Shown here: one piece after another, positions 28,829 through 45,769 of the stretch
Layout of the letters: every line of letters starts with the position of its first letter
Position numbering within the stretch: the first letter of the stretch is position 1
NCBI GenBank assembly: GCA_937924475.1
Contig: CALDSV010000009.1
Span: 1 to 64,000, forward strand
DNA: 64,000 nucleotides
Origin: an uncultured bacterium
GTDB lineage: Bacteria > Nitrospirota > Thermodesulfovibrionia > Thermodesulfovibrionales > Thermodesulfovibrionaceae
Direction of reading: 5' to 3'
Position numbers and translations under genes: made by a program
The notes under the pieces: model-generated
Told to the model about the DNA's origin: nothing
Databases searched by the model: none
The model's input: only the letters and a program-made list of their open reading frames with translations

Positions 28829-29489
28829 TTAGCTTACAAAGTTTTTAAGTTTTGGATTTGTCACTTGGGTATAAATTTGGGTCGTTCTAATGTTCCGATG
28901 GCCCAAAAGTTCCTGGACATATCTGACGTCAACACCATTTTCTAATAAATTGGTCGCAAAGCTGTGTCTTAATGAATGAAATGTAGCGTCTTTTTTGATA
29001 CCAGCTTTCCGAAGTGCATTTTCAAAAACTTTTTGAACTGTCCGCTCAGTCAATTTTCCGCCTCGCTCGCTTTCAAAAAGATAATCATATAGGTTTTTAT
29101 CAGTGATTAAGTTTTGAGGATCTATTTTGATTTTCTCAGGAAAAATAGTAATCCTATCTTTTTTGTCTTTAGCATTTTTAAGGTGGATAGTTAATTCTTC
29201 TAAATTGATATCTTTCACTTTTAAATTAACAACTTCACTAATCCGCAATCCTGCGCCGTAAGCTAAAGAGATTATTAATTTATGCTTTGGATTTTTAATT
29301 GACTCATATTTTTTCTAAATCAAATTTTTTAAAATCAAAATAATCTTTTAAACAACAAAGATAAGCTTTTGTAGTTTTAAAGCTGTATTTTCTCAACCTT
29401 AATTCCTGTTTTGTTTTTTCTAAATATTCTTGTATACTTTTATAAAAATTGCTAAAATAAAGTTGGTAAACGAACACTTGTAATTCCAT
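28829..29489 (-). pseudogene. Xer-like tyrosine recombinase, internally deleted
   Basis: Two frames on the minus strand form one broken recombinase. The 5-prime part (29304-29489) carries an N-terminal SAM-like domain (SFKTTKAYLCCLKDYFDF). The 3-prime part (28829-29248) carries the catalytic domain with the box I arginine in GLRISEVVNLKVKDI, box II HSLRHSFATNLLENG and the tyrosine of TTQIYTQVTNPKLK. Reading through the join, LEK is followed out of frame by ESIKNPKHKLIISLAYGAGLR, so about 90 residues are missing along with the reading frame. There is no IntI-specific insert between boxes I and II. It is probably inactive. It points away from the gene array, as integron integrases do. Confidence 0.88.
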
Positions 29490-30070: not shown

Positions 30071-32311
30071 ATGAAGACAGAAAGCCATTCAATACATGAT
30101 GTTTTAGCAAAAAATGCAACATCATTTTTTATCCCACCTTTTCAAAGAGCTTATGCATGGGGAAAACCTGAAATTGAGAGATTCTTTACTGATGTGTCAA
30201 GAATTATTGAATCGCATTTGGACCCTGAGCAACACGACAAATTGGAACACTTTTTTGGAACAATTGTTCTCAAAGAGGAAAAGGCTGGTTTTGCGAACAA
30301 ATTGATAATTGTTGATGGTCAGCAAAGACTCACGACCACACTAATTTTTTTAATTGCTTTACGAGACAGCCTTAACGATCCTGAAAAGGAAAATTTGATT
30401 ACACAAACTTATTTAGTAAACAACTCTTCCACCTTTCAAGACAAAATCAAACTTAAACAAGTTACAAAGGATTGGGATGCTTATAGAGCACTTGTAAATA
30501 AGGAAAAACCAAAACCAGGAGTGATAAGTAATGCTTACGAATTACTCAAAAAATTAATCAATGAAAATAAAAGAAAAAATCCCAATGTAGAATTCGATCA
30601 TTATATTATTGCTTTACAGCGAATAAATGTTGCTGTAATCTTTCTTGATGAAAGGCCATTTAAAGGTGAAGATCCACAAATCATATTTGAAACCCTAAAC
30701 TCATTAGGTAAACCACTTACCTTAGCCGACCTTGTTAGGAATTTTGTTCTTCTAAATATGGATAGCAACAATCAGACTGATATTTACGAAAACATCTGGC
30801 ATCCACAAATAGAAGAAGTCCTATTAGATAACACATCTTATTTTTTTAGAGATTATCTACAATACAAAACTAAAAGTTCACTTAAAGTGGTAAGCGATAA
30901 TAACACTAAAGAACTTTATCAGCAGTTTAAGGAATTTGTTGAAAAAATTGAAAACCGCAATGAGTTTATTAATGATATTATTAAATATGTTAAATGTTAC
31001 AAGTGGATAATTACCGAAATCAACAACGACACTATTTCGAATAATCCTAACAATGACAAAGAAATAAAAGAATTATTAAGAAACATCTTCCACGACATAG
31101 AATCCGAAGCATTCAAACCTTTTGTATTAAGCTTGCTGGAATATCACCAGTATGGTGTTAATGGCATACAAATGAGTGACGAAATGCTAATTTCAACACT
31201 TAAAGCAATTAGAACATATCTAATAAGGCGAAGGGTGTTAGGCTTAACTCAAGGTGAAAACAAAAACATTGTTATACTGAGCAAGAAAATTGAGAGCCTT
31301 GTCAGAGGAAATATTTCAATGTTTGACATTTTATCAAATATGTCTTATAGATTGCGATTGCCAAATGATCAAGAAATAACAAAAAGATTAGAAGAAGTAA
31401 ACTTCTATGAGGAGTTAAAAAGTTATACTAAATTTATTCTTGGAAAAATAGAAGAACATAACACAAAAGTATCTGTGGACTTCCGTAATCCTAAAATTAC
31501 AATTGAACATATAATGCCACAGAAATTAGATGACAATTGGAAAAAAGATTTGGGTGAAAATTTTGAAGAAATTCATAGAAATTACCTACACAATATAGGA
31601 AATCTTATTCTCACCGAGTTTAATATTGAAATAGGTAATAGGTCTTTTGAAGAAAAAAAAAGAAAACTTAACAAATCATCTCTCTACTATAGGCTTGATG
31701 TGATTAATAAAAATATCTGGAATGAACAAAGTATCAAGGAGCATCAATTCAATATGATAAAGTGGTTTCTTGAAACTTTTCCACTTCCTGAAAAATACAG
31801 AGATAGAGATAATTGGAATACCCAAACAATTGAAAGTACTTTATTTTCGCCATTAGATAGTGATGCAGCAGTTATGGCAGAAGGCAATAAGCCGATTGAA
31901 CTCCATATTTTTGGTAATGTGGTTAAAGTCAATTACTGGCGAGATGTATTTATCGAATTTCTTAAATACTTAAAAAATAATACCACATACAACTTTAATT
32001 ACATTCTAGACAATCAATATGAAATGTTTAAGCATCATGATGTTATAATAAAATGGAGTAGACTCAAAGAATTGATTGAAACAAACACTGATTTGACAAC
32101 TCGTTATAAGAATTTTGATGGAAAATTTTATAATCAAGTGATAGAGTTAAGTGACGATTTATTATTTATTCTTGTTAGAATCTCAGCTTATAGTTGTGTG
32201 TCGAGAATTGCCACTATTATGCGGAAATTGAAGCTACCAGATGACTCTATTCAAATTAAATTAAAGAAATTTTCTATGACAACAAAGGACAAACCCAATG
32301 AACAGAATTGA
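30071..32311 (+). CDS. GmrSD-like DUF262/DUF1524 restriction endonuclease
   Basis: Proteins joining DUF262 (GmrS-like, NTP-using) and DUF1524 (GmrD-like HNH nuclease) form type IV restriction enzymes against modified phage DNA. In this 746-aa protein the DUF262 motifs are FFIPPFQRAYAWGKPEIERF (about residues 16-35) and IVDGQQRLTTTLIF (about 79-92). The DUF1524 HNH signature IEHIMPQKLDDNW lies near 478-490, with HNIGNLILTEFNIEIGN after it. A further about 150-residue C-terminal part has IELHIFGNVVKVNYWRDVFI and is a common extra domain of such proteins. A GGGGG site precedes the ATG. Its stop overlaps the start of an hsdS remnant. Confidence 0.88.
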   Translation: MKTESHSIHDVLAKNATSFFIPPFQRAYAWGKPEIERFFTDVSRIIESHLDPEQHDKLEHFFGTIVLKEEKAGFANKLIIVDGQQRLTTTLIFLIALRDSLNDPEKENLITQTYLVNNSSTFQDKIKLKQVTKDWDAYRALVNKEKPKPGVISNAYELLKKLINENKRKNPNVEFDHYIIALQRINVAVIFLDERPFKGEDPQIIFETLNSLGKPLTLADLVRNFVLLNMDSNNQTDIYENIWHPQIEEVLLDNTSYFFRDYLQYKTKSSLKVVSDNNTKELYQQFKEFVEKIENRNEFINDIIKYVKCYKWIITEINNDTISNNPNNDKEIKELLRNIFHDIESEAFKPFVLSLLEYHQYGVNGIQMSDEMLISTLKAIRTYLIRRRVLGLTQGENKNIVILSKKIESLVRGNISMFDILSNMSYRLRLPNDQEITKRLEEVNFYEELKSYTKFILGKIEEHNTKVSVDFRNPKITIEHIMPQKLDDNWKKDLGENFEEIHRNYLHNIGNLILTEFNIEIGNRSFEEKKRKLNKSSLYYRLDVINKNIWNEQSIKEHQFNMIKWFLETFPLPEKYRDRDNWNTQTIESTLFSPLDSDAAVMAEGNKPIELHIFGNVVKVNYWRDVFIEFLKYLKNNTTYNFNYILDNQYEMFKHHDVIIKWSRLKELIETNTDLTTRYKNFDGKFYNQVIELSDDLLFILVRISAYSCVSRIATIMRKLKLPDDSIQIKLKKFSMTTKDKPNEQN

Positions 32312-35079: not shown

Positions 35080-35271
35080 ATGATAAAAGTTGTTGCAAAG
35101 AATATTATCAAAGAAGATAAAGTTAAAGAGGTCTTGAAACTCTGTAGGGAGCTTATAGGTGCTAAAAGTAATGAAGAGGAAAATGAGCGGATAAACGGTT
35201 CGGCTCTTGCAGATCCTCACCCAAATTGCCTAAGCTTCGCTTCGGCAACTTCGTTTATCCGCAACCGTTAG
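35080..35271 (+). pseudogene. Truncated monooxygenase-like (ABM) gene running into an attC site
   Basis: The first about 25 codons (MIKVVAKNIIKEDKVKEVLK) match the opening of antibiotic-biosynthesis-monooxygenase-domain proteins of about 95 aa. The rest of the frame, NGSALADPHPNCLSFASATS and onward, is encoded by the attC site at 35187-35273 and is not protein-like. The true 3-prime part and the left core of attC were therefore removed together. The ribosome site (gaggtgaaagtctATG) is intact, so a short non-functional peptide may be produced. Confidence 0.65.
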
Positions 35272-35273
35272 GC
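35187..35273 (+). other. attC recombination site A
   Basis: A perfect 11-bp stem GCGGATAAACG (35187-35197) pairs with CGTTTATCCGC (35252-35262), with inner short hairpins (GCTTCGCTTCGGC), and ends in the core GTTAGGC (35267-35273). This is the classic attC layout. It is almost identical to the site at 46713-46807. The left core (RYYYAAC) is missing because the preceding gene was truncated into it. The following gene starts 24 bp after the core. Confidence 0.85.
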
Positions 35274-35297
35274 GAAATGCATAGGAGGTATTGAGAT

Positions 35298-36206
35298 ATG
35301 TCGATTATGATTGATTCGGAACGAGGAAAAAAGGTAGCGGAACTCCTCTATACTTCCTTCGCTACTAATGGTATTCATGGAAGAACAGATATGCCTGAGG
35401 ACATTGCACCCAATGAGGTGGTAAGAGGCTCCCTTGAACAAATATTGTTTATAACTCTCACGGTTTCTATCGACTACCAACGAGATGCACCATCGTTATG
35501 GACGAGTTCAAGAAAAACATTTGACGATCCAGAAACAAGATACTTATTTGTTCCAAAACTACTTCATGAAACTCCTTACGATAAGATTATCGAAGATATG
35601 CAAAAGTATGGGCTATCTAAGAAACCTCAAAAAGATGCCTATATTTGGCGGACAGTTGGCGTTACTTTTTATAAGAAATGGGGAGGCAATCCATGTAACT
35701 TCCTTAAAGACTGCAACTGGGATTCACCACTCATTTTGAAACGCTTAAAAAACGACACTCATGTATATAACGGAAGATTCGTATCGGATTATCCATACCT
35801 CCGTGGTCCTAAGATTGGGCCACTATGGTTAAGGATGCTAAGGGACAATGTAGGAATAGCACAATTGATAAATTTGGAGAAGGTTCCTATCCCCGTAGAT
35901 ATACATGTAGCAAGAGCTACATTAGCTACTGGGATTGTTAGAGGGCAGTTCAGAGGTAGATTAGATGAAGTGTTTGAATATATACGAAAAGCTTGGTTTG
36001 AAAGTGTAAAAGGACTTAGCGTTAAAAATAGAGAAATGATAGCATTAGACGTGGACGAGCCTCTTTGGAATCTCTCTAAGTATGGTTGTACAATGCGAGA
36101 TAAGGAGACTGGAAATTGTCCACTTTATCATAGATGTGAAGCAAAAGAGTTTTGCGTTAAAGGACCGTTTAAAATAGAAGGTAATATTGTGGAGTTTGAT
36201 TTATGA
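35298..36206 (+). CDS. HhH-GPD DNA glycosylase-like protein with C-terminal Fe-S loop
   Basis: A 302-aa protein in an integron-type cassette. Around residues 166-215 it has a helix-hairpin-helix-like YPYLRGPKIGPLWLRML and then VPIPVDIHVARA, in which the aspartate (about residue 200) matches the catalytic Asp of the VDTHV motif of endonuclease III-like glycosylases. The C-terminus has four cysteines (Cys-x9-Cys-x5-Cys-x5-Cys from CTMRDKETGNCPLYHRC), spaced like a variant Fe-S loop. An N-terminal about 100-residue domain with SIDYQRDAPSLWTSSRKTF is not one I know. AGGAGG precedes the ATG, and the stop overlaps the next gene (ATGA). Substrate unknown; base excision on modified or foreign DNA is inferred. 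Confidence 0.7.
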   Translation: MSIMIDSERGKKVAELLYTSFATNGIHGRTDMPEDIAPNEVVRGSLEQILFITLTVSIDYQRDAPSLWTSSRKTFDDPETRYLFVPKLLHETPYDKIIEDMQKYGLSKKPQKDAYIWRTVGVTFYKKWGGNPCNFLKDCNWDSPLILKRLKNDTHVYNGRFVSDYPYLRGPKIGPLWLRMLRDNVGIAQLINLEKVPIPVDIHVARATLATGIVRGQFRGRLDEVFEYIRKAWFESVKGLSVKNREMIALDVDEPLWNLSKYGCTMRDKETGNCPLYHRCEAKEFCVKGPFKIEGNIVEFDL

Positions 36207-36655
36207 AAACATTATGTATAGTTCCTTGTGGGAGTAGTAAGATATGGGATAAAAAACCAAATGCAGGGCCTACCAAAGCAAGGGATGTATATATCGGACC
36301 GTTCGCTAAAAAGTGTAGAGAATATGCAGAGAAATTTTTTCCATCCTCTTGGTGCATTCTCTCTGCAAAATACGGATTTCTGTTTCCAGACGAAATTGTC
36401 CAAGGCCCTTATAATGTAAGTTTTAATAACAAAAGCACAAATCCAATCTCTTTAAATGAACTTTCAAATCAAATAATAGAAAAAGGATTGGATACGTTTG
36501 AAAGAATTGTGGTTTTGGGTGGAAGAAATTATGTAAATATGATAAAAGAAGTATTTTACCCGAAGGAAATTCACACGCCATTAACTGATTGCCAGGGAAT
36601 CGGATATATGATGGGAAAGCTTAACGACTCTATTCAAAGAGGAGTTCCGCTATGA
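36203..36655 (+). CDS. DUF6884-like protein coupled to the glycosylase-like gene
   Basis: A 150-aa soluble protein with a pattern I associate with DUF6884: an N-terminal LCIVPCGSSKIWDKK with a conserved cysteine and lysine, AGPTKARDVYIGPFAKKCREY, SSWCILSAKYGFLFPDE and a C-terminal GIGYMMGKLNDSI. Function is not established; such proteins often occur on phages and mobile elements. The ATG overlaps the stop of the glycosylase-like gene, and both are in one cassette ending at the attC site at 36669. The two are therefore almost surely co-expressed and act together. Confidence 0.7.
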   Translation: MKTLCIVPCGSSKIWDKKPNAGPTKARDVYIGPFAKKCREYAEKFFPSSWCILSAKYGFLFPDEIVQGPYNVSFNNKSTNPISLNELSNQIIEKGLDTFERIVVLGGRNYVNMIKEVFYPKEIHTPLTDCQGIGYMMGKLNDSIQRGVPL

Positions 36656-36668
36656 CCCACGAACTATC

Positions 36669-36759
36669 GCCTAACAGAGCGTATCTGGCTTCGTGCCTTT
36701 GGCACTCCACCCAAATTCCTCGCTACGCTCGGAACTTCAGATACGCTCAGCCGTTATGC
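36669..36759 (+). other. attC recombination site B
   Basis: Complete attC structure: left core GCCTAAC (36669-36675), stem GAGCGTATCTG (36677-36687) pairing with CAGATACGCTC (36738-36748), a middle hairpin around cgtgcctttggcac, and right core GTTATGC (36753-36759). It begins 13 bp after the DUF6884-like stop, exactly where a cassette attC is expected. Together with site A it defines a 1.49-kb two-gene cassette. Confidence 0.9.
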
Positions 36760-38057: not shown

Positions 38058-38190
38058 GCACATAACAATGTATAAGCGCAATTCGGGCTGAATGGCTAAA
38101 TTTGAGCGTTTTTACTCCGCATAAACTTTGAATTGGACAGACAGTACATCGCTCCAAACCCCTTACTGCGCTTATACTTGACCGTTAGGC
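38058..38190 (+). other. attC recombination site C
   Basis: Left core CATAAC (38061-38066), stem GTATAAGCGCA (38070-38080) pairing perfectly with TGCGCTTATAC (38167-38177), and right core GTTAGGC (38184-38190). At about 130 bp it is longer than sites A and B, with a large inner region of imperfect pairing, as is usual for VCR-like sites. It follows the membrane-protein stop by 48 bp. Confidence 0.88.
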
Positions 38191-38899: not shown

Positions 38900-39358
38900 A
38901 TGAATAAAGAACAAAAATTTTACAAAGCATTACAGGATGTATTTGTCGGTGCTAAGATTGAAGGTATTGGTGGTTTTGTTAATTTGATGAGGATAAAATC
39001 AAATTACTACAGGAAGATAGAAGATATTCTTAAAAAGGATATTGAATGGGCTCTAAAGGGCTATCCTAGATTTAGAGATGAACTTTTTGACAAACTCTAT
39101 TCTTTTTTCAGTCGCTATTTTACGGAAAGCGGTTCAATTTATTTTAACTCAATGCCCTCTCACAATAATGTATATGAAAAAACATACACAAACGAAAAAG
39201 ATGTGGTTTTATTCTGGAAAATGCAGATGCTTTATTATGTCAAGACAGATAGAATATTTAGAAGTCTTGAAATAGAAGTTGATAATCATAAATTCTTTTT
39301 TGATGTTTCAAATCTTGAACACAAAAAAGCAAATGAAAAAAGAGGATATATTACATGA
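38900..39358 (+). CDS. Uncharacterised 152-aa gene coupled to the type III-like res gene
   Basis: I do not recognise this family by a named domain. The protein is soluble, rich in Lys, Phe and Tyr, with a conserved-looking start (EGIGGFVNLMRIKSNYYRKI), a central FDKLYSFFSRYFTESGSIYF and an end with VDNHKFFFDVSNLEH. Its stop overlaps the res ATG by 4 bp, so the two are co-translated. Two further broken copies of its 5-prime half are at 29789 and 33667. The repeated link with restriction genes suggests a regulatory or specificity part of the module. Confidence 0.8.
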   Translation: MNKEQKFYKALQDVFVGAKIEGIGGFVNLMRIKSNYYRKIEDILKKDIEWALKGYPRFRDELFDKLYSFFSRYFTESGSIYFNSMPSHNNVYEKTYTNEKDVVLFWKMQMLYYVKTDRIFRSLEIEVDNHKFFFDVSNLEHKKANEKRGYIT

Positions 39359-42051
39359 AATTGACTTTTGAATCTAATCTGGATTTTCAATTAAAAGCAA
39401 TTAACTCTATCGTGAATCTTTTTGAAGGACAGCAAAGGGATTCAGGTACATTAGATTTTACTTTTTATACAAACGATACTCAGGAGTTATTTCCGGGAAT
39501 AAATAGTATAGGCAATAGACTTGTCCTTTCCGATAAACAGATATTTCAAAATCTTTGCAAAATACAGGAAGAAAATGAAATAAGCGTTATTTCTGAAGAA
39601 GAATTTCAGAATAATGGACTAAACTTTACTGTTGAGATGGAAACCGGTACAGGAAAAACGTATGTGTACCTACGAACCATTTATGAACTCAATAAAAAAT
39701 ATGGTTTTAAAAAATTTGTTATTGTAGTACCTTCTATTGCTATTCGTGAAGGTGTACTAAAAAATCTTGAAATTACCTTTGAACATTTCCAAAATCTCTA
39801 TGATAATGTGCCAGTTAATTATTATGTGTACGATAGCAGTAAGGTTTCCTCTTTGCGATCTTTTGCAACCAGCAATAGCATTGAAATTCTTGTTATCAAT
39901 ATTGATTCTTTTGCTAAAGATGAAAACATTATTAACCGTCCTAATGACAGATTAAGTGGCCTTGAGCCCATTAGATTTATTCAAGCCACCAATCCAATCG
40001 TAATAGTAGATGAGCCACAGAATATGGAAACTGAAAAAAGAAAAAACGCAATTAACAGTCTAAATCCGCTCTGCACTCTCCGTTATTCTGCCACTCATAA
40101 GAATTTATACAACCTGGTTTATAGTTTAAACCCTGTAAAAGCTTACGACTTAGGTCTTGTAAAACAAATTGAAGTAGATTCGGTAGTAGAAGAAAATACA
40201 TATAACGATGCTTACATTGCCGTAGATGAAATTAAATCAAAAAAAACTAAAATAAATGCTAAAATTACCATTCACTCTGCTGAAGGCAATACCATAAAGA
40301 AAAAAAGTGTTACTGTAGAAGTGGGAGATGACCTTTACCAGTTGTCTGGTAATCATCAGCCTTATAGAGAAGGCTTTGTGGTTGAAGAAATAGATGTAGC
40401 CAATCAAACAATTAAGTTCTCAGGTGGAATGACTTTGAATTCTGGCTCATCTAAAGGTGGAATGACCGACGAAATTATGCGTTTTCAGATTCAACGCACC
40501 ATTGAAGAACATTTGAAAAAAGAACTAAAACTATACAAGCAGGGAATTAAAGTACTCTCATTGTTTTTTATTGATCGAGTTGCTAATTATAGATACTATG
40601 ACGAGCAAGGCAATCCTCAAAAGGGGAAAATAGCACGGTGGTTTGAAGAAGAATATATAAATATTATAAACAGAAATGAATTTTTGGAACTAAGAAGACT
40701 TTTTCATCCTAATAATAAGATAGACATAGAAAAAATACACAACGGCTATTTTTCGCAGGATAAAAAAGGTCGCTTAAAAGACACAAGTGGCGAAAGTAAG
40801 GATGACCTCAATACCTACGATTTAATCATGAAAGACAAAGAAAAATTGCTTGATATTAACTGTCCTCTTCGATTTATTTTTTCTCATTCTGCTCTTCGTG
40901 AAGGCTGGGATAATCCCAATGTATTTCAGATTTGCACACTCAATGAAACAAAGTCAGAACTCAAAAAACGGCAGGAAATAGGTAGAGGACTCAGGCTTGC
41001 AGTCAATCAAAACGGCATGCGTGTTTACGATAAAAATGTAAACCGTCTTACGGTCATTGCCAATGAAGCTTACGAAACTTTTGCCAAACAATTACAGACT
41101 GAAATTGAAGAAGAATGCGGTGTAAGCTTTAAAGGCAGAATTAAAAACAAACGAGAACGAGTAACTGTCAAATATCGCAAGGGTTTTGAAGTCGATCCAA
41201 AATTTCTTGAAATATGGGAAAAAATTAAACATAAAACTCGCTATATTGTAGAATATCAAAGCGATAAACTTATTGAACAAGCTGGAAATTCTATTAAAAA
41301 CCTCCCCGAAAGCCCATTACCTTCTCTGAAAGCCACAAAAGTTGAACTGAATATTACAACTGAAGGTATCGACATATCCCTGGTAAGAGAAAAAAGAGAA
41401 TTTTATGGCAACCAGTGCTCATGGAAACTGCCCGATATTATTGAATACATTCAGCAAAAAACTGAACTTACAAGAAACACAATAAAACGAATTTTAGAAA
41501 AATCAAACCGATGGGAGGATTTTTTTACCAATCCGCAGTATTTTTCTGATCAATGCGTGGCTGTTATTAAAAGAACTCTTACAGAACTTCTGGTAGATGG
41601 CATAAAGTATGAAAAAATTGGTAACCAGTATTATGAAATGCGGCTTTTTACGATACAGGAACTGGAAACTTATCTTGATAAGTTTACCTTTGAAGTCAAA
41701 AACAAAGACAAAACCATCTATGAAAAATATATCCCGCTGGACTCAACAGTTGAAAGCCAGTTTGCTAAAGATTGCGAAACAAGTGAAAATGTGGAGTTTT
41801 ATTTCAAACTTCCCAACTGGTTCAAAATTCCAACGCCTATTGGCTATTATAACCCCGATTGGGCAGTAGTTTTGAAAAACGAAAAGAAAATTTATTTCGT
41901 AGCCGAAACCAAAGACACAGGCACTGATAAAGTGGATATCTCAAAACTTCATCCCGATGAACAGATGAAAATAAAATGCGGTGAAAGGCATTATGAAGTT
42001 TTTGATGATGTAGAATACAAAGTAGTAAAAAGAGTAAGTGAGTTGATGTAA
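39355..42051 (+). CDS. res: Type III-like restriction subunit Res (helicase-nuclease)
   Basis: ATP-dependent helicase and nuclease subunit of a type III-like restriction system. The 898-aa protein has Walker A METGTGKTYVYLRTIYEL near residues 98-106, IVVPSIAIREGV, a DEPQ box (IVIVDEPQNME, about 217-227), SATH, and C-terminal helicase motifs FIFSHSALREGWDNPNVFQI and ELKKRQEIGRGLRLAV. The end has NPDWAVV...KIYFVAETKDT, a PD-(D/E)xK endonuclease signature. All key motifs look intact. It is followed 21 bp later by the OLD gene and then mod, whereas mod usually precedes res. Confidence 0.93.
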   Translation: MKLTFESNLDFQLKAINSIVNLFEGQQRDSGTLDFTFYTNDTQELFPGINSIGNRLVLSDKQIFQNLCKIQEENEISVISEEEFQNNGLNFTVEMETGTGKTYVYLRTIYELNKKYGFKKFVIVVPSIAIREGVLKNLEITFEHFQNLYDNVPVNYYVYDSSKVSSLRSFATSNSIEILVINIDSFAKDENIINRPNDRLSGLEPIRFIQATNPIVIVDEPQNMETEKRKNAINSLNPLCTLRYSATHKNLYNLVYSLNPVKAYDLGLVKQIEVDSVVEENTYNDAYIAVDEIKSKKTKINAKITIHSAEGNTIKKKSVTVEVGDDLYQLSGNHQPYREGFVVEEIDVANQTIKFSGGMTLNSGSSKGGMTDEIMRFQIQRTIEEHLKKELKLYKQGIKVLSLFFIDRVANYRYYDEQGNPQKGKIARWFEEEYINIINRNEFLELRRLFHPNNKIDIEKIHNGYFSQDKKGRLKDTSGESKDDLNTYDLIMKDKEKLLDINCPLRFIFSHSALREGWDNPNVFQICTLNETKSELKKRQEIGRGLRLAVNQNGMRVYDKNVNRLTVIANEAYETFAKQLQTEIEEECGVSFKGRIKNKRERVTVKYRKGFEVDPKFLEIWEKIKHKTRYIVEYQSDKLIEQAGNSIKNLPESPLPSLKATKVELNITTEGIDISLVREKREFYGNQCSWKLPDIIEYIQQKTELTRNTIKRILEKSNRWEDFFTNPQYFSDQCVAVIKRTLTELLVDGIKYEKIGNQYYEMRLFTIQELETYLDKFTFEVKNKDKTIYEKYIPLDSTVESQFAKDCETSENVEFYFKLPNWFKIPTPIGYYNPDWAVVLKNEKKIYFVAETKDTGTDKVDISKLHPDEQMKIKCGERHYEVFDDVEYKVVKRVSELM

Positions 42052-42072
42052 AACATAAAAGGAGTAATGAAT

Positions 42073-43794
42073 ATGAACATTACAAAAGTATCTGTCCATA
42101 ATTTCAGGTCTATAAAAGATATAAGCTTTGAACTTGATAAGTATATGTGTATCGTTGGGCCTAACAATTCAGGTAAATCAAATTTAGTTAATGCCTTGAG
42201 AATTTTTTATGATGGTGCTAAATATAATGAAACTACTGACTTTCCTAAGTTTAATACAGATGATAATGAAAGCTGGATTGAAATTGAATATCAACTAACA
42301 GATGAAGAATTTAAAACATTAAAAAATGATTATAAAAATGATAATAAAATACTTAAAGTGCGTAAATACCTCAAATCTAATGATAGAGTAAGAACCAATC
42401 AGAGTAATATTTATGCTTATGAAAATGGCAAACTTTCAAATAATCTTTTTTACGGGGCAAAAAATATATCAGAGGCAAAGCTTGGAAATATTATTTATAT
42501 CCCGGAACTGACAACTACAGATGAAAATTTAAAATTAACTGGACCTTCGCCGTTAAGAGAAATAATTAGTTTTGTAATGAATAAAGTGATAAAAAACAGC
42601 AGTTCTTTTAATAGCTTAACGGAATCCTTTAAAGAATTTAATGATAAATTTAGAGATGAGGCATCTAAAGATGGCTACTCTTTAGAGGAATTACGTAAGG
42701 ATATTAATGAAAACCTCAAAGAATGGGAAATAGAATTTAAGTTAGATATAAATCCCGTAAAACCAGAAGATATAATTAAAAGCCTTGTTTCTCATTATGC
42801 TTTTGATAAAAATTTAAGCAAGGAAGTAGAAATAAAATATTTAGGACAAGGACTTCAAAGACATATAATATATACTTTATTAAAACTATCACATAAATAT
42901 AAAGATGCTAAAAAAAGTGAGAAAAAAGATTTTTCTCCTGATTTTACATTGATTTTGTTTGAAGAGCCGGAAGCCTTTTTACATCCAAACCAGCAAGAAT
43001 TACTAAACTATAGTTTAAGGGATTTATCGTTTGAAGAAGGACAACAGGTTATGATAACAACCCACTCCCCAATATTTGTATCAAAAAATATACAAGATAT
43101 AAATTCAATTGTTAGATTTAAAAAAGAGAATGGTAGAACAAGCACCTATCAAATTTCCATAGATTTGAAAAAGAAATTACTTGATGAAAATAATGAGTTA
43201 ATAAATTCTTTAAGAGAAAAGATAAATGATAATTCAATTAATGATGAAACAAAACATAGAATTCAAAAAATAATAGGAGACACCGAAGATGAACAAAGAT
43301 TAGAAGAAGAAAGTATTCGCTATTTATTATGGCTTGATTCTGAAAGATGTTCAGCTTTTTTTGCTGATATTGTTTTGATTTGTGAAGGTGCTACAGAAAA
43401 AGTTTTTATTGATTACCTTATAAAAAATAAGTGGAACGAATTAAAGGAAAAAAGAATTTATGTGCTTGATGCAATGGGAAAGTTTAATATACATCGTTAT
43501 ATGAATTTATTTAATCAATTAGGGATTCATCATTCTGTTTTAGCCGATAAAGATGAGAATAATAGTGTCCACGAAATTATAAATAAATTCATTACCGACA
43601 ATAAAAATGTTTTCACAATAGGAATTGATTTTTTTGATAAAGATATTGAAAATTTTCTCGGTATTGCTCAACCTGAAAGAAATGATAAAAAACCATTAAA
43701 TATTATGTATCACTATTTTAATAACAAAATAAGTGAAGATAAAATAAAAGCACTAAAATCAAAAATAGAGAATTTGGTTACGGAAAGGAGTTAG
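42073..43794 (+). CDS. OLD-family ATPase/TOPRIM endonuclease inserted between res and mod
   Basis: OLD proteins couple an ABC-like ATPase to a TOPRIM nuclease and act in phage defence. Walker A is VGPNNSGKSNLVNALRIFY near residues 27-45, a signature region lies at IKYLGQGLQRHIIYTLL, Walker B is TLILFEEPEAFLHPNQQELL and is followed by the switch ITTHSPIFV. The C-terminal third has the TOPRIM glutamate in DIVLICEGATEKVFIDYL and later VLADKDENN. ATG 42073 is preferred as GGAG is 8 bp upstream; 42067 is also possible. It overlaps nothing but sits 1 bp before mod, so it is part of the operon. Confidence 0.9.
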   Translation: MNITKVSVHNFRSIKDISFELDKYMCIVGPNNSGKSNLVNALRIFYDGAKYNETTDFPKFNTDDNESWIEIEYQLTDEEFKTLKNDYKNDNKILKVRKYLKSNDRVRTNQSNIYAYENGKLSNNLFYGAKNISEAKLGNIIYIPELTTTDENLKLTGPSPLREIISFVMNKVIKNSSSFNSLTESFKEFNDKFRDEASKDGYSLEELRKDINENLKEWEIEFKLDINPVKPEDIIKSLVSHYAFDKNLSKEVEIKYLGQGLQRHIIYTLLKLSHKYKDAKKSEKKDFSPDFTLILFEEPEAFLHPNQQELLNYSLRDLSFEEGQQVMITTHSPIFVSKNIQDINSIVRFKKENGRTSTYQISIDLKKKLLDENNELINSLREKINDNSINDETKHRIQKIIGDTEDEQRLEEESIRYLLWLDSERCSAFFADIVLICEGATEKVFIDYLIKNKWNELKEKRIYVLDAMGKFNIHRYMNLFNQLGIHHSVLADKDENNSVHEIINKFITDNKNVFTIGIDFFDKDIENFLGIAQPERNDKKPLNIMYHYFNNKISEDKIKALKSKIENLVTERS

Positions 43795-43795
43795 T

Positions 43796-45769
43796 ATGGA
43801 AGGACAGAGCTTAAACATAAAACAAGAAATATCAAATCAACTCAAAGAACTTATTCCCCATTGCTTTACCGAAGATAAAATCGATTGGGAAAAACTAAGA
43901 GTATTTCTGGAAGATAACATTGAATTTCGTAACGAACGATATCACCTTAATTGGGCTGGTAAAACCGATGCTTTTCGGCTATTACAAGCCCCCACTTATA
44001 AAACCTTAAAACCCTGCCGTGAGGAAAGCGTACACTTTGACGAAACCGAAAATCTTTTTATAGAAGGCGATAATCTGGAAGTGCTGAAAACATTGCAAAA
44101 ATCCTACTTTGGAAAAATTAAAATGATATACATAGACCCGCCCTATAATACGGGCAACGACTTTATTTATAAAGATGATTATTCTGAAACGCTTGCCGAA
44201 TACAAACAAAAAGTAGGCGATGTGGATGAAAACGGCAATGCTACCCGTGCTAATTTATTCAAGAATACAAAAGAAAACGGACAATACCATTCCAACTGGC
44301 TAAATATGATGTATCCACGACTCTTTCTTGCCCGAAACCTGTTGCGTGATGATGGGGTAATCTTTGTAAGTATTGATGATAACGAAGTCCACAACCTGCG
44401 ACTTATGATGGATGAGATTTTTGGGGAAGAGAATTTTGTGGCGGTGTTTATAAGGAAACAAAATTTGGCCGGTAAACAAGATGCTAAGTTTATTGCCCTT
44501 GAGCATGATTACGTAGTTTGTTATTCGAAAAACATTAACACCTTATCAATTAATAAAAGAATTTCGAATCTTGAAGGTTATAAGTATTCTGATGAATTTG
44601 AGAAAGAAAGAGGAAAATTTTACTTAAGAAGAATGGATGACGATGGTATCAGTTATTCAGAAAAATTGGACTACTGTATCAAATTTGAAAGAGGAAGTGA
44701 AGTTGTAGTATGGGATGAAATTAACAAAAGATGTATTAAAAAAATCTTTGATGAAGATATTGAAATATGGCCGGGAGGTAGTAAAGAAGACAAAAGTTAT
44801 ACTTGGAGGTGGTCGAATAAGAAAGTTGAATGGGGTATAAAAAATAATCTGATTGTTCTTAAGAAAAATGCTAAAGGCGAATGGCAAGTTTGCTTTAAAG
44901 AGTACCAATATGTAGATAATAATTTAAATAGAGTTGAACGAATTATCCCCTTTGGTTCTTTAATATTAGATTATCCAAATAATTTGGCTCATAAAGGATT
45001 CAAAGAATTATTTCAAGGGAAAAAATATTTTGATTATCCAAAACCGAAAGATTTAATAAAACATCTACTTAAAATAGCTACTTCCCCCTCTGACATCATC
45101 CTCGACTTTTTTGCTGGCTCTGGCACCACAGCCCATGCTGTGATGGAACTCAACGCTGAAGACGGTGGCAACCGTAAGTTTATTCTGGTGCAACTACCTG
45201 AACCAACAGACCCTGATAGCGAAGCATACAAAGCAGGCTACAAAACCATAGCCGATATTGCAAAGGAACGCATCCGCCGTGCCGCAAAGAAAATTCAGGA
45301 TGAACTTAATGAAAAAAATAAGAAAAAAGAGGAAGAATTGCAATTTGAGAAAAGAGAAGATAAAAAATTAGATTTAGGCTTTAAAGTTTTTAAATTAGAT
45401 GAAAGCAACTTCAAACAATGGCGTCCTTTTGTGCCAGAAAATGCAGAACAAATCAAAGAAGCTGTGCTTGCTTTTACAGAAAATGTAAAGCCCGAAGCCA
45501 CCACCGAAAACATACTCTATGAGCTTATGCTTAAAAACGGTAAAAAACTAACAGATAAAATTGAAAAGAAAAATGGCTATTATCTAATAAATGACAACGA
45601 ACTTGTTTTGCTTTTAGAAAGTGTTGAGCAATTGGTAATAGATGAAATACTTCAACTCAAGCCGCAGAAAGTGGTAGCACTAGATAAATTATTTAACGGA
45701 AATGACCAGTTAAAAACAAATATTGTGTTACAATTTAAAGATGCAGGGATAGAGTTTAAGAGTGTGTGA
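43796..45769 (+). CDS. mod: Type III-like adenine methyltransferase Mod
   Basis: Beta-class N6-adenine DNA methyltransferase subunit of type III restriction systems, which sets the target sequence for both Mod and Res. Motif IV is MIYIDPPYNTGNDFIYKDDYSE around residues 107-128 (DPPY), and motif I is ILDFFAGSGTTAHAVMEL near residue 434, in the order IV then I that defines the beta class. The central about 200 residues between them form the target-recognition region. The C-terminal region is charged and helical. At 657 aa it is full length. Ribosome site GGAAAGGAG precedes the ATG. Its stop overlaps a small downstream GTG-start frame. Confidence 0.94.
   Translation: MEGQSLNIKQEISNQLKELIPHCFTEDKIDWEKLRVFLEDNIEFRNERYHLNWAGKTDAFRLLQAPTYKTLKPCREESVHFDETENLFIEGDNLEVLKTLQKSYFGKIKMIYIDPPYNTGNDFIYKDDYSETLAEYKQKVGDVDENGNATRANLFKNTKENGQYHSNWLNMMYPRLFLARNLLRDDGVIFVSIDDNEVHNLRLMMDEIFGEENFVAVFIRKQNLAGKQDAKFIALEHDYVVCYSKNINTLSINKRISNLEGYKYSDEFEKERGKFYLRRMDDDGISYSEKLDYCIKFERGSEVVVWDEINKRCIKKIFDEDIEIWPGGSKEDKSYTWRWSNKKVEWGIKNNLIVLKKNAKGEWQVCFKEYQYVDNNLNRVERIIPFGSLILDYPNNLAHKGFKELFQGKKYFDYPKPKDLIKHLLKIATSPSDIILDFFAGSGTTAHAVMELNAEDGGNRKFILVQLPEPTDPDSEAYKAGYKTIADIAKERIRRAAKKIQDELNEKNKKKEEELQFEKREDKKLDLGFKVFKLDESNFKQWRPFVPENAEQIKEAVLAFTENVKPEATTENILYELMLKNGKKLTDKIEKKNGYYLINDNELVLLLESVEQLVIDEILQLKPQKVVALDKLFNGNDQLKTNIVLQFKDAGIEFKSV

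Follow-up and report, generated by a model that had tools for sequence, protein, structure and literature searches.

A gene cassette found in bacteria and archaea pairs a predicted HhH-GPD-fold glycosylase with a DUF6884 protein and is probably an undescribed antiviral system

In the window (i.e., the whole stretch of 64,000 nucleotides that was analysed), two overlapping genes, which we will henceforth refer to as A and B, form a single gene cassette, which has been transferred between bacteria and archaea and probably constitutes an undescribed antiviral system. Gene A encodes a protein with a predicted HhH-GPD glycosylase fold and intact catalytic residues, and gene B encodes a small DUF6884 protein. 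We tentatively read the pair, with a little under even confidence, as a mobile module in which A would cut a modified guanine (most likely a 7-deazaguanine) out of invading DNA while B would present or process that base.

The cassette and its surroundings

The features relevant to this analysis are given below (positions within the window).

28832-29455, reverse strand: degraded tyrosine recombinase, interrupted by internal stops, that heads the cassette array
30071-32308, forward strand: GmrSD-type (type IV) restriction endonuclease (cassette context)
35188-35277, forward strand: attC site belonging to the cassette before A-B; its right half is preserved, its outer left site (R'') has degraded, and the boundary GTTAGGC lies near 35269
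35298-36206, forward strand: gene A, 302 aa, HhH-GPD-fold glycosylase-like protein with Lys172 (PYLRGPKI), Asp201 (IPVDIHV) and Cys264, 274, 280 and 286
36203-36655, forward strand: gene B, 150 aa, DUF6884 (YaaA/DpdC-like) protein with motifs PCGSSK (C-x3-K), LSAKYG and Y-x3-F
36669-36759, forward strand: attC site closing the A-B cassette (GCCTAAC ... GTTATGC, inner stem 8/8)
39355-45766, forward strand: type III restriction subunit, OLD-like ATPase and N6/N4 DNA methyltransferase (cassette context)

Genes A and B make up one cassette that ends in a well-formed attC site, and the overlap described in an earlier, sequence-only reading of this DNA is present as an ATGA common to the end of ORF A and the start of ORF B. 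That reading had also placed the pair between two attC sites, which holds fully downstream, where both arms are intact, and in part upstream, where the outer left arm has decayed. Specifically, the downstream site has both outer and inner inverted repeats and, as single-stranded DNA, folds better than 198 of 200 shuffles, and the right half of the upstream site retains GTTAGGC and an inner stem (GCGGATAAA/TTTATCCGC; fold z -2.06). A further attC candidate at 38060-38190 was a pattern match alone, folding no better than shuffles, and was rejected. The recombinase remnant may be that of an integron integrase; sequence comparison of the degraded gene places it equally near XerD-type enzymes, and because XerD-type fragments match it equally well we did not take it as proof of an integrase. 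The restriction-gene surroundings noted earlier were recovered as the GmrSD-type and type III genes listed above. The host genome (1.87 Mb) has a single copy of A, which was not found in the 10 other genomes of the same genus that were searched.

The two proteins and their closest relatives

The AlphaFold2 model of A (pLDDT 87.5, pTM 0.88) shows the HhH-GPD fold on which the sequence-only reading had staked its interpretation. In structural comparisons (Foldseek and VIA) the model matched Qng1, EndoIII, MutY and AGOG at Z 14-19.6, with Qng1 ranked first (Z 19.6; rmsd 3.4 Å over 251 residues), followed by EndoIII (16.6), MutY (about 15) and AGOG (14); the top matches were HhH-GPD proteins, with no UDG among those listed. 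An A-B fusion protein (37% identical), modelled separately, likewise placed Qng1 first (Z 18.0) and EndoIII second (14.7). Profile-profile comparison gave probabilities of 93 for AGOG, 89 for EndoIII/MutY and 26 for Qng1, with AGOG as the sole good PDB profile match; the score of A against the AGOG Pfam family (PF09171) was 14.5 bits, below the cut-off of 26.1, and the alignment extended over about 62-70 residues. As A had no Pfam match to PF10343 (Qng1) and aligned weakly with it by profile, we rejected A as a Qng1 orthologue, and a single-sequence search of solved structures returned nothing useful. We place A in a branch of its own close to AGOG and Qng1.

The catalytic residues of this branch are conserved: K172 and D201 were invariant in 12 of 12 aligned A members. 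VDIHV, earlier taken for a variant of the catalytic aspartate, is really the standard PVDxH motif with its catalytic Asp intact (D201), and the supposedly unknown N-terminal domain proved to consist of helices belonging to the glycosylase fold, an assignment made because the structural alignments cover residues 1-296. The catalytic Lys of A lies 29 positions before the catalytic Asp, a long spacing that matches those of AGOG (31) and Qng1 (32), compared with 18-19 in EndoIII and OGG1. The canonical hairpin LPGVGxKT is absent from A, with YLRGPKIG in its place. The four-cysteine loop is indeed a variant one, as first noticed from the letters: its spacing, C-x9-C-x5-C-x5-C, is unlike the C-x6-C-x2-C-x5-C of EndoIII, and the loop is absent in haloarchaeal A members. 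These cysteines might be ligands of a metal or Fe-S cluster, although the model is weak in this region (pLDDT about 60). AGOG acts on 8-oxoguanine and Qng1 on queuosine 5'-monophosphate, a 7-deazaguanine; since both act on guanine-type bases, a guanine-type base is our best guess for the substrate of A.

Protein B matched DUF6884 (Pfam PF21818) at 60.1 bits (cut-off 30) and carries the CxxxK (PCGSSK) and LSAxxG (LSAKYG) motifs, bearing out its earlier assignment to this family. DUF6884 is distantly related to YaaA, and the Pfam curators point to the same two motifs and to a member, YfjM, recovered on damaged (abasic-site) DNA (PMC11701544). The family also includes DpdC (PMC11888242), which converts dPreQ0 in DNA to dADG (PMC12839542); indeed, DUF6884 was matched by the DpdC of a dpd cluster (L122) and by plasmid DpdC-like proteins. 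B itself matched the DpdC model weakly (E 0.015), on which ground we rejected it as DpdC, and no dpd gene was found among the annotated neighbours in the window. B also matched the PADLOC candidate-defence model PDC-M57A (3.6e-17), which means that the B family was already on record as a candidate for defence. For the A-B fusion model, the glycosylase domain filled the list of structural matches, and no YaaA was among them, a result that is uninformative about B.

Many phages and plasmids carry relatives of B, either on their own or beside different partners. In an archaeon, one protein (L143:1423-2874, reverse strand) combines a DpdA-like transglycosylase with a B-type DUF6884 domain (DpdA model 9e-10, PDC-M57A model 2e-16). 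In the haloarchaeal virus HRTV-29, a B relative overlaps dpdA by 8 bp and is 37.5% identical to the B that adjoins an A-like gene in Halomicrobium. These ties of B relatives to DpdA, arising twice independently, are the strongest pointers to a 7-deazaguanine in DNA.

Other DUF6884 arrangements came to light in the same searches. On enterobacterial plasmids (L123:1685-3576 and L125:1679-3549), a DpdC-like DUF6884 gene overlaps, again by ATGA, a gene for a protein of 404-406 aa without clear family (P0005); the DpdC-like match was found in 2885 plasmid records, and this two-gene DUF6884 pair may be very frequent among plasmids of Klebsiella, Escherichia and Enterobacter. In Halobacteriota, proteins of about 575-620 aa (L144, L145, L147, L148, L149 and L154) have an N-terminal B-like domain, which in the two read at full length (L144 and L147) is followed by an AAA ATPase like PtuA/AriA and has lost the Cys of CxxxK; such proteins are possibly DNA-sensing defence ATPases.

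The top structural likeness of A, to an enzyme acting on queuosine 5'-monophosphate, and the loss of the LPGVG hairpin would also suit a nucleotide-level enzyme that, like Qng1, hydrolyses a free modified (deoxy)nucleotide, not DNA, for salvage or for depletion of a viral pool of modified nucleotides. However, YaaA, DpdC and YfjM tie B and its relatives to binding or acting on DNA, AGOG, the nearest sequence relative of A, acts on DNA, and A has retained a Cys loop like that of EndoIII-type enzymes, which act on DNA; we consider such a role very improbable.

Pairing, spread and neighbourhood of the two genes

B lies next to A, now or formerly, at 16 of the 24 A-type loci, a tally that includes plasmids L004 and L005. 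At eight loci an intact B follows an intact A on the same strand, one encodes an A-B fusion protein of 552 aa, two haloarchaea have B as a convergent neighbour, four have a decayed B beside A and one has a decayed A beside an intact B; A stands alone at seven more, and at the last a B fragment was found on another contig. Among 286 Halobacteriota genomes (taken, as their handles suggest, to be the first 286 of the 393 scanned), B was present in 6 of the 10 with strong A matches vs. 42 of the 276 others (Fisher p 0.002). Distances between A proteins and between B proteins were correlated (r 0.94 over 11 pairs, permutation p 5e-5), also for close cassettes only (r 0.72; 17 of 720 permutations), and dN/dS values of 0.12-0.19 for A and 0.12-0.28 for B indicate purifying selection on both genes. 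The pairing of A and B is not due to chance, and co-occurrence of the two families outside the window, by which the sequence-only reading had proposed to judge the pair, is widespread. A further archaeal protein of 551 aa (L046:1303-2958, reverse strand) has an A-like HhH domain and cysteine loop at its C-terminus, preceded by a long N-terminal part without assignment.

One scan of 84,980 species yielded 11 relatives of A. They came from a Methanosarcinales archaeon (89% identity), an unclassified bacterium (84%), WOR-3 (81%), Candidatus Argoarchaeum (79%), a Thermoplasmata archaeon (77%), Ignavibacteria (73%), an Actinomycetes MAG (69%) and Omnitrophota (66%), with more distant relatives in Dehalococcoidia, Nitrospirae and Desulfovirgula. 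In the window as well as in WOR-3, Argoarchaeum and Methanosarcinales, an attC with a near-identical layout lies within about 12-16 bases past B (this layout is shared by L007, L008 and L012), and several bacterial and archaeal copies have a related cassette start (e.g., GTTAGGCGAAATGCATAGGAGG in the window, GTTAGGCGAAATGCGTAGGAGG in Methanosarcinales and GTTATGCGAAATGCGTAGGAG in WOR-3). Because most of these records come from metagenome assemblies, the host given for any one of them may be mistaken, but contamination would hardly account for a pattern that recurs in so many independent assemblies. Gene cassettes have been described before in archaea, as has their passage from one domain to another, and genes for phage resistance are a frequent cargo of archaeal cassettes (PMC9668308). 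In the Methanosarcinales copy, the gene after the cassette (L012:7593-8267) encodes a second HhH-like protein (KGFGPKQSRN...IPVDSRI), for which no Pfam or PADLOC match was found.

Neither tblastn with A nor a search of viral contigs revealed close phage relatives, and a distant homologue in a haloarchaeal virus surfaced through structure only. This is gp212 of Halogranum tailed virus 1 (HGTV-1; L188:8692-9414), which belongs to the A family (E 1.7e-29 against the A profile), keeps both Lys and Asp and carries the annotation endonuclease III; no DUF6884 gene is annotated adjoining it. It would fit either viral counter-use or the handling of the virus's own modified DNA.

The neighbourhood of the pair is rich in defence genes, with DUF1156-DUF499 genes and a C5 methyltransferase near A-B in L015 and L016 and methyltransferases in L007. 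When neighbours and controls were compared with PADLOC on equal terms (E 1e-10), the 144 proteins from the neighbourhoods hit 372 models vs. 45 for 143 control-region proteins from the same genomes, a difference that we treat as supportive only because models, not loci, were counted and one R-M gene rings many models. The models matched by the neighbours include DrmA, DrmD, BrxH and type I subunits (i.e., DISARM, R-M and BREX-type); no PADLOC model was matched by A or its AGOG-type counterparts. Among the loci surveyed, A-B was sporadic and often decayed to pseudogenes. We count mobility, absence from the 10 same-genus genomes, frequent decay, defence-rich neighbours and the PDC-M57A match of B in favour of a role in defence. 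The proposal, made from the sequence alone, that the pair acts on modified bases in phage DNA is favoured by mobility, decay, neighbours and the links to DpdC and DpdA, and we keep it as an inferred role.

Possible function and comparison with known systems

A second type of glycosylase was also found with B. In nine archaeal genomes, a B-family profile search detected B close downstream of, or fused to, genuine AGOG: the downstream cases include 4-base overlaps in L132, L134 and L135 and a gap of about 1 kb in one, and archaeal AGOG-B fusions occur in L127:283-1947 (DUF7664-AGOG-DUF6884), L129 and L141. In Bacillota, a single protein (L056:568-2574) has the architecture DUF7664-AGOG-YaaA. Given that the AGOG-paired B proteins are 52-61% identical to B of the window while A and AGOG align over about 62 columns, B looks, by sequence, like the constant component of both glycosylase pairings. 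For swapping of B between A-type and AGOG-type partners, the tree test gave a p-AU of 0.41.

AGOG and YaaA are both tied to oxidative damage, and DNA repair would therefore explain the pairing too. In this main rival explanation, A would be an AGOG-like glycosylase that removes 8-oxoG or a similar oxidised guanine, and B a YaaA-like DNA binder protecting or handing over the lesion or abasic site, the pair spreading as an accessory repair function through survival of oxidative stress. Speaking for it are AGOG as the nearest sequence profile of A, the pairing and fusion of B-like domains with true AGOG in archaea and Bacillota, and the nature of YaaA (a peroxide-stress protein) and of YfjM (the DUF6884 protein from abasic-site DNA; PMC11701544). 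However, the very patchy cross-domain spread, frequent pseudogenes and defence-rich surroundings would be unusual for repair, and oxidative repair leaves the pairing of B relatives with DpdA-like transglycosylases unexplained, so that we regard it as unlikely.

An antiviral pair could also divide its labour differently, with A excising the viral modified base and B capturing or processing the abasic site instead of the base. Conservation of B over two barely alignable glycosylase types is what would be expected of a protein serving their common product, and YfjM is again relevant as one of the abasic-site interactors (PMC11701544). Given that DpdC and the DUF6884 proteins linked to DpdA work on, or are assigned to, the base and not the abasic site, and that the tree neither favours nor rejects a partner swap, this arrangement appears rather unlikely.

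We favour, tentatively, excision of a modified guanine prepared by B. The analysis itself establishes the pairing and fusion, the predicted fold with its intact catalytic residues, the movement across domains of life and the purifying selection; catalysis, the base that is cut, the sharing of steps between A and B and the action against viruses are inferred. Phages and archaeal viruses swap guanines for 7-deazaguanines and in this way evade restriction. Under this proposal, A would be an N-glycosylase using Asp201 and Lys172, with Lys172 adding lyase activity, and would cut a modified guanine-type base, most likely a 7-deazaguanine (dPreQ0, dADG or dG+), from nucleic acid. The target would most probably be invading viral DNA, in which the abasic sites left behind would block replication. 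B, as a base-flipping DUF6884 domain related to DpdC, would flip, recognise or convert the base for A; on dPreQ0 this could be hydrolysis of the 7-cyano (nitrile) group, the reaction of DpdC, for which Cys9 and Lys13 of B are candidates. By analogy, B may prepare the base for A much as BapA prepares glucosyl-5hmC for Brig3. Several observations count against this proposal: the likeness of A to Qng1 lies in the fold and is weak by profile (probability 26), and A lacks the FADY motif of Qng1; genes for 7-deazaguanine were not seen next to A-B; a haloarchaeal virus itself encodes an A homologue; and relatives of B occur alone or with other partners. Glycosylase-based immunity is already known, and a 7-deazaguanine target of A-B is plausible. 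A fuller version, in which an integron-borne, cross-domain system erases viral 7-deazaguanines, with B reading or converting the base, A excising it and two glycosylase sub-types (A and AGOG) sharing one constant partner, is possible but doubtful.

If the proposal were true, the poorly understood DUF6884/YaaA family would gain a testable role, and bacteria and archaea would have a defence module in common via gene cassettes; even if the function were repair, DUF6884 would be a recurrent partner of guanine glycosylases. A literature search returned no paper joining AGOG with YaaA, nor HhH-GPD with anti-phage glycosylases, and the PADLOC model PDC-M57A covers B only, not A.

Among known systems, Qng1 (DUF2419), the queuosine-5'-monophosphate glycosylase, is the best structural match of A and has a similarly long Lys-Asp spacing, but it has FADY where A has IPVDIH, and A, in addition, carries a Cys loop and is accompanied by a partner linked to DNA. 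AGOG (PF09171), the archaeal 8-oxoguanine DNA glycosylase, is the best profile match of A and is itself paired or fused with B-like DUF6884, yet A falls below the AGOG cut-off and their alignment is short. B shares with DpdC of the Dpd 7-deazaguanine DNA modification system the DUF6884 domain and the C-x3-K, SAxxG and Y-x3-F motifs; it differs in being half the size and in not lying beside dpdA or dpdB.

The closest working analogy for A-B is Brig3-BapA, which consists of two overlapping genes, one for a glycosylase and the other for an enzyme that renders the modified base open to excision (PMC13160076). Like Brig3-BapA and Brig1 (PMC13160076, PMC11078745), A-B combines, in an overlapping gene pair within a defence island, a glycosylase with a modified-base partner, and the expected product would be abasic phage DNA. 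By contrast, the Brig proteins are similar to uracil-DNA glycosylases and have 5hmC derivatives as their substrates, whereas A is of the HhH-GPD type and its relatives act on guanine-type bases; similarly, BapA is an ASCH-domain hydrolase and B a DUF6884 protein. If aimed at modified guanines, A-B would extend Brig glycosylase immunity to a new fold and a new class of bases.
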